Source: a virus. Taken from it: 22,430 nucleotides of DNA. This document shows, piece by piece, positions 11,401 to 22,430 of the stretch (its first letter is position 1; each line of letters opens with the position of its first letter). The stretch covers positions 1-22,430 of IMG/VR virus record IMGVR_UViG_3300017760_000120. The stretch is one strand, 5' to 3'. The position numbers were made by a program, and so were the translations under genes. Under the pieces are notes generated by a model, which was given only the letters and a program-made list of their open reading frames with translations, did no database searches and was not told the DNA's origin.

Positions 11401-12595
11401 AGCACCTTGGAATAAAGATTCTACACTATTACCAATGAATAAATGGAAAAATGGTGTTGGTAAAGCAATAAACTTTTCTTACTTTAGTCCCTATGAAGTT
11501 GTACAGAAACCATTTGAATCTCTAATTACAGAAATAGAACAAGGTAAACTTTTACAAAAAGATATTGATGATAGAACTTTAGAATTAGTCGGTTCTTTTT
11601 TAGGTCCCATTATTGAACCCTTTGTATCTGAAGCAATTGCGCTTGAAAGAACTTCAGACGTTATTCCAGCAGGATTTGGTGTTGGTGGCCGAGGTGGTCA
11701 AACAAAAACAGGAAGTAGAGTTTATTCACCAACTGATAGTGTAGGCGATAAAATAACAAAAAGCTTTGTTCATGTAGTAAAAGGTGTAGAGCCTGGAGTT
11801 TCAACAACAGGTAGAAAAATAGCAAAAGGAATAAATCAAGATTTAACTAGAGGAGGTGTACCTGTTAATTTAAGAGATGAATTATTAGCTTTATTCTCAG
11901 GTATTAGAATTATAAACGTAGATGCACCAAGAGCTTATAATTATAAATTAACTGAATATAATAAAAACAAAAGATCAGTTACTGTATCAGAAAAGTTTTA
12001 TAGTCCTGAAAACGCACAATCAAGAGGCGGAAAAACTTTAGTTAAAGAGTTTGAAAAAATTCAGGATGAGGGTCTTATGGTGCAAAGAAAATTTTATCAA
12101 GTATTAAAAGATGCTGAAGCCATGGGCGTGGACAAAAGAACATTAAGAAAATTAAATAAAGGTAGATTATCTAATAAAGAATTTAACAGAATTTTAAGAA
12201 ACAAATACACACCTGTAGGATACTCAAAATCTAGAATGAACAAGAGAGTTAGAGATATTGAAAAAGCTTTCCCTGATCAAGAAATAGATAAAAGTTTCGC
12301 ATATCCAAGAAGAGAATTAAATCAAATTATTAGAGAATATAGAAATAGACCTTTACAAAAAGAAGAAACAAAAGAGCAAGAAATAGAAGATCAAAGATCA
12401 GAAGTAACACCAAGACAAGAACCAACAAGAGTTAGTCAAGTACAAACACCACCTCTACCAAGAACACCTGCGCCAATAATATCTGGAACACAGACCGCAA
12501 ATGTGGTAAATCCAATGTCTGGGTTGACGCAAACTGAAACTGCATTATTATCCCCAGAAGAACAAATTATAAGACAAAGGACTAAAAGAGTTTAA
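8465..12595 (+). CDS. Giant internal virion / ejection protein (1376 aa)
   Basis: This is the largest gene of the window. The product is mostly helical and soluble, with an amphipathic, small-residue region near 240-290 (IGGGFALAGKPIALGIKYG) and another hydrophobic stretch near 942-965 (GASFTLGGAGTSALNLASS) that could insert in membrane. Residues about 700-960 look most conserved-like (LSPATQVRNVTSASLFPLA; YAGGDNLWKWYGHEY; LPFGNFVSFPAEMIRTSF). The last 85 residues are rich in Arg, Gln and Glu with Pro, probably disordered. Length, position after two helical virion proteins and absence of enzyme motifs fit a large ejectosome protein, the role of T7 gp16. I saw no lytic transglycosylase motif. 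A strong GGAGGAG precedes the start. A minus-strand reading frame at 10528-10860 is a shadow. Confidence 0.62.
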   Translation: MPLFKEPKYKTSKIDLDKDTVFKSLKKRTNPKPKKEVKFTWSGLGNLVRSLAPTDPRKFERLGLLASGEAKPEEKDYIDFFEDVEKGLYGIAENTAYSIGDLATSGIDAVAGTNLNERLDKSFEENKMDDPETFIGKATEIVGTYGIPGGAAFKIMNRVRKLSQLKRSKAFLRLTAGKKISNIASSAGYMAGVVGATDFLANDPDRQTLAIEQESLEGLSSRERVAAKFRNRLRFGAEGALIGGGFALAGKPIALGIKYGIVKPLTTTASIGLKVADKTVVQPVSYLLSKDKLVIPTISKGLQKGSAYTLENILSPLLIGKVPFKTQLPKFKDWRMFSVNSEDEVKRRVKKLDNFLAKFRSVGEQTAQQYRLSTAAKTEIKAVNRTIEKYLEDLEKRSYALAGGFLKHYNTQKPSPALRDKYLNDVLAYLKKEMPLEKLPETLRVSAKGLDTELVKAKQKFADLLPEGDLKSFIINNVQSYMRKSFSVFTNPEYAPKKEVFDDAVKYFSTVIKGNKDMTEAALKFINKPTDQERITEYAKSLTNKLLRDGKNNDLDPLQVLQRIGKKDLRLDKTIKTGEELPDAVKRLLGAEDDLKASVLTTVNHAIVNTTNKKLADRLAILGQREGWLYKSREAAIANGILDPHRIQAPQSLGLLNTRLNNLYGSAQISQAVRGTPGTLDNLIQNKAYRGLLQFKVATQFGKTVLSPATQVRNVTSASLFPLANGHIGGRASVTDAVKIVMDDIFGAGKDVTTPRLIKSIENKIRLGVLDENIVASELGAVLKEIKKGSVNNLDALYNKLTNGRFFKGATRLYAGGDNLWKWYGHEYVKSQLRSTYKNVDDIAQWTREITGKEYDRFLPFTRQLKTFDDALDEASAWYIRNTYPTYSKVPEAIKAIRKLPFGNFVSFPAEMIRTSFNILNIGAKEIASSNEALRQIGYRRMIGASFTLGGAGTSALNLASSITGTTVDELDAYKRSFAAPWNKDSTLLPMNKWKNGVGKAINFSYFSPYEVVQKPFESLITEIEQGKLLQKDIDDRTLELVGSFLGPIIEPFVSEAIALERTSDVIPAGFGVGGRGGQTKTGSRVYSPTDSVGDKITKSFVHVVKGVEPGVSTTGRKIAKGINQDLTRGGVPVNLRDELLALFSGIRIINVDAPRAYNYKLTEYNKNKRSVTVSEKFYSPENAQSRGGKTLVKEFEKIQDEGLMVQRKFYQVLKDAEAMGVDKRTLRKLNKGRLSNKEFNRILRNKYTPVGYSKSRMNKRVRDIEKAFPDQEIDKSFAYPRRELNQIIREYRNRPLQKEETKEQEIEDQRSEVTPRQEPTRVSQVQTPPLPRTPAPIISGTQTANVVNPMSGLTQTETALLSPEEQIIRQRTKRV

Positions 12596-12789
12596 TGGCA
12601 ATAGAACCTAAAACAACTAGAGAACATATTTTATCCCTGTATGGACATATATCAGGAGTTAAAAAAAATATTGCGCACATGCACAAAGGTATTCATGAAT
12701 TGGGTGGCAAGATAGACAAAATCTATTGGGTTCTTTTAGCTGCGGTGGGGACCGTGGCCTTACTTTTATTAGAAAGATTTATAACTTAG
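12595..12789 (+). CDS. Small C-tail-anchored membrane protein (holin-accessory-like)
   Basis: The 64-residue product has a charged helical N-terminal half (about 8-42, with LYGHISGVKKNIAHMHKGI) and one C-terminal transmembrane helix (about 43-60, IYWVLLAAVGTVALLLLE). This plan, a heptad-like amphipathic region before a terminal membrane helix, resembles XhlA-type accessory lysis proteins, but similar short proteins of unknown role are common after the structural genes of marine phages. The ATG overlaps the TAA of the giant virion gene (TAATG, 12593-12597). Its TAG (12787-12789) overlaps the stop of the opposing minus-strand gene (12786-12788), so it closes the rightward structural unit. Membrane location is well supported; a lysis role is only a guess from size and place. 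Confidence 0.68.
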   Translation: MAIEPKTTREHILSLYGHISGVKKNIAHMHKGIHELGGKIDKIYWVLLAAVGTVALLLLERFIT

Positions 12790-19495: not shown

Positions 19496-21507
19496 TGTGT
19501 ACTGTGCCAGAGATAACTGATTTAGATTTATCAGGTGTTACTACAGTGGCTGTAGACTTAGAAACCTATGATCCTAATTTAAAAACAAAAGGCTCGGGTG
19601 CTATAACAGGTAATGGTTTTGTCTGTGGTATTGCAGTAGCAACGCACAAACAAACATTATACTTTCCAATTAAACATGCAATGACAAGTAATCTTAATGA
19701 AGATAAAACTTGGGATACTCTTAACAAATTAATTTTTCAAAACGAAAACATAGCTAAAGTTTTTCATAACGCTATGTACGATGTGTGTTGGATTAGAGCA
19801 ACCACAGGACTAATGTTAAAAGGACCAATCTATGACACTATGATAGCGGCCTCAGTGATAGATGAAAACAGGATGAAATATTCTTTGGATGCTTTAAGTA
19901 AAGATTATCTAGACGACTCTAAATATAAATGGGATTTAAAAGATAAGTCTTTGTCTCAATACGGTATTAGTGATCCTATGAGTAACATGCACAAACTTCC
20001 TTACGTCTTAGTAAAAGATTATGCTGAACAAGATGTAAGTTTAACTTTTAGGCTGTGGGATTTATTTAGTAAAAAATTAGACGAAATTATATACCCCCCA
20101 AAGGGTAAAAGTCCACGAAAAATTTTTAATTTAGAAACTAAATTATTCCCATGTTTAGTTGACATGAAGTTCAAAGGAGTTAAAATTGATGTCCAAAAAG
20201 CTGAGCTGTTTGGTAAGTTTTTAGAAAGAAGAAAACAAAAATTAATTAAAATTATAAAAGATAAAACGGGTATTGAAGTTGAAATATGGGCAGCTGCATC
20301 TATAAAAAAACTTTTAGATAAATTAAAAGTAACAGATTATAAAAAGACACCAAAGTCTGGTATGCCTCAGTTACCTAAAAACTATTTACAAACACACAAA
20401 GAACCTCTGCTAAGATTAATAGCAAAGGCTAGAGAATGTGAAAAAGCAAACAATGCTTTTGTAGAGGGTTTATTAAGTTTTGTCCATAAGGGTAGAATAC
20501 ATGCTGACATAAATCAAATAAGATCTGACCAAGGTGGCACAGTCACAGGTAGATTTTCTATGAGTAATCCAAATCTACAGCAGATTCCTGCAAAAGGATG
20601 GATAGGTAAAAAGATGAGAGAGCTGTTTACGCCAGAAGATAATTGTATTTGGGGTAGTTTTGACTATTCACAACAAGAGCCTAGAATTGTAGTGCATTAT
20701 GCAATTAAATTATTAAAAAATAATCCTAATTTGTTAGAGGCAAGGATACCGAAGAAGTATAAAAATCATAACAAACAACAAATTATTAAGAGTGTTGAAA
20801 AGATAGAAAAATTTTATCAAGATAATCCAGATGCTGACTTTCACCAAGTGGTTGCAGACATGGCTAAAATACCAAGAAGACAAGCAAAGACCATAAATCT
20901 AGGTATGTTTTATGGTATGGGAAAAATAAAACTACAAAAAGAGTTAAACTTAGAGAGACAAGAAGCCAGAGAATTATTTGAACAATACCATGCTGAGGCT
21001 CCCTTTGTTAAGAAACTATCAGAAGAGCTTATAGAGTTTGCAACTGATAATGAGTTACTGTTCACACTTGGAGATAGATTTTGCAGATTTAATAAATGGG
21101 AAACAACAGATAAGAAATGGAATAATAAGATAGGAAGATTTGACCCAGTGCCTTTGTTGACAAAAGAAGAGGCAAAAAAAGAATATCGAACTTTTTTATT
21201 AGAACATCAAAAAGAAAAAGATGATCAGTACGAAAACTTACTATATTACTATGCTCCAGCGTTTACATACAAGGCTTTAAATAGATTAATCCAGGGTTCT
21301 GCTGCTGACATGACAAAGCAAGCTATGGTTAATTTGTATGAGCAGGGTATATTACCGCACATACAAATACATGACGAGTTGTGCATTTCTATAAAAGATG
21401 ATAATCAAGTAAGAGTAGTAATGAAAACTATGGAAGAAGCTATTCCTTTATTAATAAAAAATAAAGTAAGTTATAAAAAAGGAGATAGTTGGGGCAACGC
21501 AAAATGA
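19495..21507 (+). CDS. polA: Family A DNA polymerase with 3'-5' exonuclease
   Basis: This 670-residue PolA-type replicative polymerase lacks a 5'-nuclease domain, as in T7. The proofreading domain is complete: DLET (D21, E23; ExoI), HNAMYDVCW (91-99, D96; ExoII) and YAEQDVSLTF (176-185, D180; ExoIII). The polymerase domain shows TGRFSMSNPNLQQIP (351-365), motif A FDYSQQEPR with D390, motif B RRQAKTINLGMFYG (461-474, K465 and Y473) and motif C QIHDEL (624-629, with D627). Aligning motif B with E. coli RRAAKAINFGLIYG puts L469 at the position of Phe762. The segment between motifs A and B is long and lysine-rich. The ATG overlaps the DUF3310 stop. The enzyme probably copies the phage genome with the neighbouring primase and SF1 helicase. 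Confidence 0.95.
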   Translation: MCTVPEITDLDLSGVTTVAVDLETYDPNLKTKGSGAITGNGFVCGIAVATHKQTLYFPIKHAMTSNLNEDKTWDTLNKLIFQNENIAKVFHNAMYDVCWIRATTGLMLKGPIYDTMIAASVIDENRMKYSLDALSKDYLDDSKYKWDLKDKSLSQYGISDPMSNMHKLPYVLVKDYAEQDVSLTFRLWDLFSKKLDEIIYPPKGKSPRKIFNLETKLFPCLVDMKFKGVKIDVQKAELFGKFLERRKQKLIKIIKDKTGIEVEIWAAASIKKLLDKLKVTDYKKTPKSGMPQLPKNYLQTHKEPLLRLIAKARECEKANNAFVEGLLSFVHKGRIHADINQIRSDQGGTVTGRFSMSNPNLQQIPAKGWIGKKMRELFTPEDNCIWGSFDYSQQEPRIVVHYAIKLLKNNPNLLEARIPKKYKNHNKQQIIKSVEKIEKFYQDNPDADFHQVVADMAKIPRRQAKTINLGMFYGMGKIKLQKELNLERQEARELFEQYHAEAPFVKKLSEELIEFATDNELLFTLGDRFCRFNKWETTDKKWNNKIGRFDPVPLLTKEEAKKEYRTFLLEHQKEKDDQYENLLYYYAPAFTYKALNRLIQGSAADMTKQAMVNLYEQGILPHIQIHDELCISIKDDNQVRVVMKTMEEAIPLLIKNKVSYKKGDSWGNAK

Positions 21508-21516
21508 GAATTTATT

Positions 21517-22167
21517 ATGGCATATCTAAACGCAAACATTCCTGTAGAGTACGCTCAAATAAAGAGAGAATATCTTTATGACCTTAAGAAACATCATGGT
21601 GAAGTTGAAGACTGCATTATTTTTGGTCTTTCGGCTCTTACAGGGCGTAGTATCCTTTTTCATTGTATTATGGAAAATGGAGCTGTCTACTATCGTCTAC
21701 CGATATCTGCGTTCATTCAAAGAGGCTTTAAGCCAGAAGAAGTTCCTAGACGTAGACTTGATGAGTTACAGCTTTGGAATTGTTTCAGTTATTATCCTGC
21801 TGTTACTACTTGGGATATTTTAGAAGCACAAGCCGGTAAATACATTGGTAAAGATAAGAAATGGCACCACGGTAAATACTTATTTACGGTTGACTTTGCC
21901 CATCCTGAAGCTAATATATTAGACACGGATCATTCAGAGATACCGCACGAGCACAAGTGTGCTCACATCATAGCCCTAGACGACGGGAACTATGCAGCAC
22001 AACCAAACAACAGATGCATTTGGGATATACCTTCATTTACAGTGAAAGATAATATTCCAGACTGGAAAGTGCAGACTTCTGAATGGAATGTAGAAAACAC
22101 AAGTAAGTGGAAGACGGAAGACACAGATAACTTCTTCTACGAAATTGAGGAGAAAAAACATGATTAA
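21517..22167 (+). CDS. Conserved marine-phage protein of unknown function (216 aa)
   Basis: This protein begins 9 bases after the polymerase stop. I recognise the general type (MAYLNANIPVEYAQIKREYL at the start; ALTGRSILFHCIMENGAVYY at 40-59; YRLPISAF; LQLWNCFSYYPAVT) as one often found beside PolA in uncultured marine phages, but no function is known. It appears globular, with many aromatic residues. A His/Cys cluster reads HSEIPHEHKCAHI (about 139-151), near two further His-bearing strands (KWHHGKYLFTVDFAHPE), so metal binding is possible but not shown. AAQPNNRCIWDIPSFT (about 160-175) is another conserved-looking patch. The last 30 residues are acidic and probably flexible. The end overlaps a tiny downstream gene by 8 bases. 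Confidence 0.75.
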   Translation: MAYLNANIPVEYAQIKREYLYDLKKHHGEVEDCIIFGLSALTGRSILFHCIMENGAVYYRLPISAFIQRGFKPEEVPRRRLDELQLWNCFSYYPAVTTWDILEAQAGKYIGKDKKWHHGKYLFTVDFAHPEANILDTDHSEIPHEHKCAHIIALDDGNYAAQPNNRCIWDIPSFTVKDNIPDWKVQTSEWNVENTSKWKTEDTDNFFYEIEEKKHD

Positions 22168-22240
22168 AAAAATTTGGAACAAAATTAAAGGTCTTTGGGA
22201 TAAGTATGTTAAATGGATCTTTAAAGGTTTTTATAAGTAA
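22160..22240 (+). CDS. 26-residue cationic amphipathic peptide
   Basis: ATG at 22160 overlaps the previous gene by 8 bases, and TAA at 22238-22240 shares its A with the next ATG (TAATG), so both ends fit the genome's compact style. The product starts MIKKIWNKIKGLW and ends FKGFYK. It has eight Lys and one Asp (net about +7) and three Trp. Hydrophobic residues at 2, 5, 6, 9, 12, 13, 16, 17, 20, 21 and 24 fall on one face of an alpha helix, with Lys on the other. That is the plan of membrane-active helical peptides. It could disturb the host membrane at lysis, bind nucleic acid, or partner the membrane protein encoded next. The AGG and AGAAA before the start could serve as a ribosome site. Expression is not proven. 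Confidence 0.62.
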   Translation: MIKKIWNKIKGLWDKYVKWIFKGFYK

Positions 22241-22430
22241 TGAAAAAAGTAAAAACAAAAAGTAAATTATCCAGATTTGAATGGGTAAAAAAGAATATAG
22301 TGATTGTTCCGGTTGTAGCAGCTATACTAGCCGGAACTTTCACATCAGTTAGATATGTTCTTAATCTTACTGATACGATAGAAGCAAACAAATCAACTCT
22401 TGTAAATATTGAAAGAGATTTAAAAGTAGC
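22240..22430 (+). CDS. Membrane-anchored coiled-coil protein, partial at window edge
   Basis: The gene begins at a TAATG junction and runs off the window end after 63 codons plus two bases. The visible part has a basic N-terminus (MKKVKTKSKLSRFEWVKK), one transmembrane helix (about 19-36, NIVIVPVVAAILAGTF) and then a polar, probably helical region (DTIEANKSTLVNIERDL). Basic residues before the helix suggest N-terminus inside and the rest outside the inner membrane. A single anchor followed by a coiled coil is the plan of inner-membrane spanins (Rz-like), but also of many other phage membrane proteins. Without the C-terminus the role cannot be fixed. It may work with the amphipathic peptide encoded just upstream. 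Confidence 0.6.
   Translation, partial: MKKVKTKSKLSRFEWVKKNIVIVPVVAAILAGTFTSVRYVLNLTDTIEANKSTLVNIERDLKV

Follow-up and report, generated by a model that had tools for sequence, protein, structure and literature searches.

A short tryptophan-rich cationic peptide gene in pelagiphage-like viruses and its possible place in host-cell lysis

Does a reading frame of 26 codons, squeezed between two other genes at the end of a viral contig, encode anything, and if so, what would its product do? The window, by which we mean the complete IMG/VR contig of 22,430 bases analysed here, resembles in its gene content the HTVC023P/HTVC027P-type pelagiphages, viruses of the ocean's commonest bacteria. Its plus strand encodes at 22160-22240 (stop codon included) the 26-residue peptide MIKKIWNKIKGLWDKYVKWIFKGFYK, recognized here by its ORF, family and selection, which is cationic, amphipathic and Trp-rich, with 8 Lys and 1 Asp (net charge +7) and 3 Trp. 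A Shine-Dalgarno sequence, GAGGAG, lies 7 nt before the ATG on the same strand (22147-22152), within the upstream gene, which codes for a protein of 216 residues (21517-22167, plus strand). These two genes overlap by 8 nt (ATGATTAA, 22160-22167, plus strand), while the stop codon of the peptide gene overlaps the ATG of the next gene in a TAATG junction. A preliminary description of the contig had noted that the frame was locked in place by these two contacts and that its residues would make an amphipathic, threefold Trp-containing peptide of charge about +7. Both observations were upheld: the hydrophobic moment of the peptide is 0.79 (shuffle p = 0.0017), a value reached by 0 of 5653 background short ORFs. 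No transmembrane (TM) segment, lipobox or coiled coil was found in it. The next gene, here termed MEMcoil, runs off the end of the contig (22240-22430, plus strand, 63 residues of its 5' part). It had been taken to specify a membrane-anchored coiled-coil protein, and its full-length relatives agree: they have 103-109 residues, a single TM segment at the N-terminus and a coiled coil.

A frame of this length, whose first codons are also constrained as part of the upstream gene, could in principle be a chance ORF; the probability of this is now negligible. We surveyed 146 related loci that have room after the 216-aa gene. In 128 of them a short ORF occupies this slot, amounting to 99 distinct DNA sequences and 94 distinct peptides, mostly of 17-39 residues, K/W-rich and amphipathic, of a kind that the preliminary description had proposed to look for in relatives. 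The frame and its overlap with the upstream gene persist across the 99 distinct sequences, 97 of which have a ribosome site, and the lengths of the peptides differ by whole codons. Selection was measured as pN/pS along minimum-spanning-tree pairs, excluding codons that overlap neighbouring genes. The ratio is 0.28 in the peptide frame versus 0.82 and 1.48 in the other frames; the argument rests on this contrast between frames, the p-value of 7e-25 being nominal in that it assumes independent changes. In the window's own subgroup the ratio is 0.25. Purifying selection, for which a dN/dS test had been suggested as a check, is seen in the peptide frame only. Broken copies lying between intact flanking genes were sought among the relatives, and none was found; where another gene occupies the slot, the peptide is often present elsewhere in the same contig (for example in L055, L071, L102 and L145), or a TM peptide is found there. 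Because the selection test is frame-specific, even without the overlap codons, the chance reading is refuted: the peptide frame is a real protein-coding gene.

What is conserved in this gene is a physical character and not a sequence. Non-TM peptides in the slot have a mean charge of +5.4 and a median of 3 Trp, and about two thirds of them individually exceed composition shuffles (p < 0.05). Moment, charge and Trp are retained despite wide sequence variation (Fisher p ~1e-54, with sequences treated as independent). Other occupants of the slot are TM peptides (L052, L079, L081, L084), peptides with a CKxxCC segment, and peptides with a Cys-rich, zinc-knuckle-like N-terminus, so that amphipathic and TM forms replace one another at this place. 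Exchange is fast. Using motif classes of our own definition, pairs of loci whose 216-aa proteins are 95-98.5% identical differ in peptide class in 71% of cases; at 98.5% identity or above the figure is 12%. This turnover indicates that close relatives exchange the peptide but retain its physical character.

Many relatives carry the peptide as the C-terminal part of a larger protein, the N-terminal 28-58 residues of which are Cys-rich and zinc-knuckle-like. This could not be seen from the window alone, and the preliminary picture, right about the gene, has to be extended accordingly. An internal ATG preceded by a Shine-Dalgarno sequence falls exactly at the junction in 46 of 47 such fusions. 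The first set had the internal site at the peptide Met in 23 of 23 fusions, where the amino acids and the codon usage (GAG for 25% of Glu, AAG for 15% of Lys) would predict 6.4, and out-of-sample new loci had it in 23 of 24; in the background, only 92 of 5041 internal ATG codons (1.8%) follow a Shine-Dalgarno sequence. Counted by distinct context, 34 of 35 have the site versus 11.0 expected (P = 6e-18 treating contexts as independent, which they are not fully). The internal ribosome sites of the fusions are thus selected. A near copy of the window peptide is fused in this way to a zinc-knuckle-like module in L473, with its internal site, and in L449 a gene beginning MEMLICSSCGHPCHCKG places such a module in frame with a TM peptide, again with an internal ribosome site, which suggests that TM and amphipathic peptides are interchangeable. 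The arrangement varies: L153, L108 and L148 encode a similar Cys-rich protein in a nearby gene of its own, HTVC027P gp12 has the Cys-rich form with no internal Met before the helix, and the window copy has the short form only, with no Cys-rich extension and hence no second start. Fusion genes of this kind predict two products. The short peptide is probably a product in its own right, the long form being a second, regulatory or targeting one, which may bind zinc to judge from its Cys/His spacing. To our knowledge the zinc-knuckle two-start form has no counterpart, and it is the most unusual part of the system.

Two starts in one frame recall the holin/antiholin pairs of phage lambda (S107/S105) and phage 21 (S71/S68) (PMC9239132), for the fusion relatives appear to encode, from two in-frame starts, both a long product and a short one. 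The extension here is, however, a Cys-rich domain of 28-58 residues and not a few residues, the window copy is of the short form only, and most of the peptides have no TM segment. The predicted layout nevertheless lends some colour to the idea that the peptide is a regulator or a tether, a peripheral helix that would anchor or time the neighbouring coiled-coil membrane proteins or the holin in the manner of an antiholin. The replacement of the amphipathic peptide by TM peptides would fit this role, and so would its neighbours, since the gene immediately downstream encodes a TM-coiled-coil protein in 109 of 146 loci (COIL2 in 74, MEMcoil in 35). This same count does not support the strict pair with a single downstream membrane gene that the preliminary description had proposed. 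Against a regulator or tether, the rapid exchange of classes described above, with charge and amphipathicity kept, suggests, if indirectly, that the target is lipid. We consider this role a possibility worth keeping in mind, at a level well short of an even chance.

Gene context brings the peptide towards lysis. A profile search returned 216 copies in the fetched loci, 168 of them after the 216-aa gene and 48 elsewhere, or 165 distinct loci once duplicates were removed. They fall into at least four gene orders, in nearly all cases next to the two kinds of coiled-coil gene, and are not tied to DNA polymerase. In the window, the peptide follows DNA polymerase and the 216-aa gene. In HTVC033P, L315, L300 and others the order is a small TM gene, amidase, a two-TM gene, a coil gene and the peptide; in L102, L149, L238 and others it is a capsid-side gene, the peptide, COIL2 or MEMcoil, secreted genes, the 216-aa gene and an M15 peptidase gene; in L266-L269 the peptide gene overlaps that of the amidase. 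A hydrolase of the M15 or amidase type lies within 3 kb of the peptide in 48 of the 68 loci having at least 3.2 kb downstream, and none was found within that distance in the other 20 by the labels used; PHROGs profiles label the hydrolases amidase/endolysin (8.8e-55, 1.2e-46). This linkage is known from relatives, the window contig ending 190 nt past the peptide. The suggestion that the peptide and its neighbour belong to an undescribed lysis or membrane unit thus gains from its context, both in coiled-coil genes and in endolysin, once loosened from the fixed pair.

HTVC033P is particularly telling. A direct search of annotated phages with the peptide gave it as the single credible match; matches in Miami-like jumbo phages and in tape-measure genes fell within large proteins, and we put them down to chance. 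The HTVC033P peptide, MIQKIKEKIKNLWAKFVDWLFSGYDK, also of 26 residues, is encoded at 20551-20631 (L326, MZ892993) behind a GGAGG ribosome site and is unannotated in the record, an example of a short form overlooked by gene annotation. Not every relative has the amphipathic form: HTVC023P shows no clear copy, and in psg01 the peptide is of the TM type and the M15 gene lies far from the slot. In HTVC033P, the late-gene strand carries the whole cassette, peptide included, and the opposite strand the replication genes. This placement speaks strongly against a role in replication or nucleotide metabolism, such as that of a membrane anchor, and favours a late role at the envelope. Proximity to DNA polymerase and the 216-aa gene in the window is what a replication role has for it, but in HTVC033P and the capsid-side gene orders the peptide lies well away from the replication genes, and the 216-aa protein itself gives no help, so that we hold such a role to be very improbable. 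GenBank records of relatives give its gene the name "purM", and purM has been reported as an auxiliary metabolic gene in 45% of the genomes of this lineage (PMC9599517). Searches of Pfam and NCBIfam gave no PurM family match and profile or fold searches no PurM structure; with no match to the domains or fold of AIR synthetase, we rejected the identity, and the label looks unsupported. AlphaFold predicts a mostly beta fold (pTM 0.74), to which tandem-Tudor matches were weak (TM-scores ~0.2) and were set aside. In HTVC033P the 216-aa gene is itself on the late strand, with the lysis genes.

Could the peptide rather be turned against the living host, altering its inner membrane for takeover or for superinfection exclusion? 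Its apparently membrane-active cationic character would suit such a task, and its diversification is fast, with pN/pS of 0.28 versus 0.075 for the 3' end of the upstream 216-aa gene, as happens in arms races. Through several gene orders, however, the peptide remains in the company of a hydrolase and of late genes, and in HTVC033P it is on the late strand. Nothing specific was found in favour of the anti-host peptide that the preliminary description had entertained, and we think a host-directed role rather unlikely.

We favour, with middling confidence, a membrane-disrupting peptide of the lysis cassette. Its physical character and its cassette fit the work of a disruptin, as does the fact that no lipobox protein was seen in HTVC033P or HTVC027P. 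The disruptin of phage phiKT, gp28, has a published activity (Holt et al., 2022, J Bacteriol, as presented in PMC12819732), and the great diversity of disruptins is said to make their prediction difficult (PMC12819732). Like gp28, which has 56 residues, a charge of +7 and a gene placed between those of endolysin (gp27) and holin (gp29), the window peptide is short, cationic and amphipathic, with a predicted helix and neither TM segment nor signal peptide. It probably belongs to a lysis cassette, to judge from its relatives; the HTVC033P copy comes after the amidase and a two-TM gene, much as gp28 sits near endolysin and holin. It differs in having 26 residues instead of 56, in its richness in Trp, which gp28 does not share, and in the zinc-knuckle extended form of its relatives, which is not seen for gp28. 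BLASTP returned no similarity to gp28 (E > 1), nor was there a credible profile alignment, and nothing similar was found in the open-licence papers searched. The proposed likeness is one of working. The peptide would be made in the cytoplasm without a signal peptide, fold as an amphipathic cationic helix, bind anionic membrane surfaces and help to open the envelope when the hydrolase is at work. Most plausibly it would disrupt the outer membrane and so stand in for a lipoprotein spanin, like the disruptin of phiKT. Where there is a long zinc-knuckle form, it may restrain the short form or direct it to its target. The peptide would then probably be an unrecognised, perhaps regulated, part of host-cell opening by these viruses.

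Replacement of spanins calls for some caution. The window peptide is not itself a spanin, being neither an outer-membrane lipoprotein nor an inner-membrane subunit with a periplasmic coiled coil, nor both; nor is it a holin, which would have at least one TM segment, as the TM variants in the same slot do. A simple motif scan of the complete HTVC033P and HTVC027P genomes gave no sense-strand ORF with a credible lipobox. Some uncultured relatives do, however, encode lipobox-bearing lipoproteins of 41-44 residues, some 3-4 kb downstream from the peptide gene (L089 7506-7631, L100 7298-7423, L008 7520-7654, L013 7517-7651, L095 7832-7963); these are possible o-spanins, and they weaken the argument that the peptide acts instead of spanins. 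MEMcoil and COIL2 resemble inner-membrane subunits of N-in topology with a coiled coil, and MEMcoil overlaps the next gene, which codes for a secreted Cys-containing protein, by about 30 nt (L095 4296-4327 and relatives), which recalls the overlapped Rz/Rz1. The product of that next gene has a signal-peptide-like start but no lipobox Cys, and its structure model is poor (pLDDT 57, pTM 0.20); in HTVC033P and HTVC027P the scan showed no lipobox o-spanin. A match of COIL2 to a PHROG spanin was not significant (E = 0.043).

Dozens of natural variants with clear gene context and frame-specific selection would make a large comparative data set for disruptin-like lysis, and the probable two-product form would offer a way to test whether an isoform can time lysis peptides. 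For work at the bench the HTVC033P copy, from a cultured phage, is the best target.

Several other genes merit mention. The window has a small TM protein of 64 residues after the gene for a 1376-aa protein (12595-12789); its counterpart in HTVC033P precedes the amidase, and the psg01 gene in that place precedes the M15 peptidase, a placement from which it may be a holin. Neither the small TM genes nor the two-TM genes have a family match, and their labels as candidate holins come from topology judged by eye. Close to the cassette in some relatives, ORF starts of the AYLAGLFDGEG type resemble LAGLIDADG homing endonucleases (L095 7960, L008 7638, L013 7635, L079 7939). At the other end of the window, three consecutive ORFs (17-1853) resemble 2OG-Fe(II) oxygenases.
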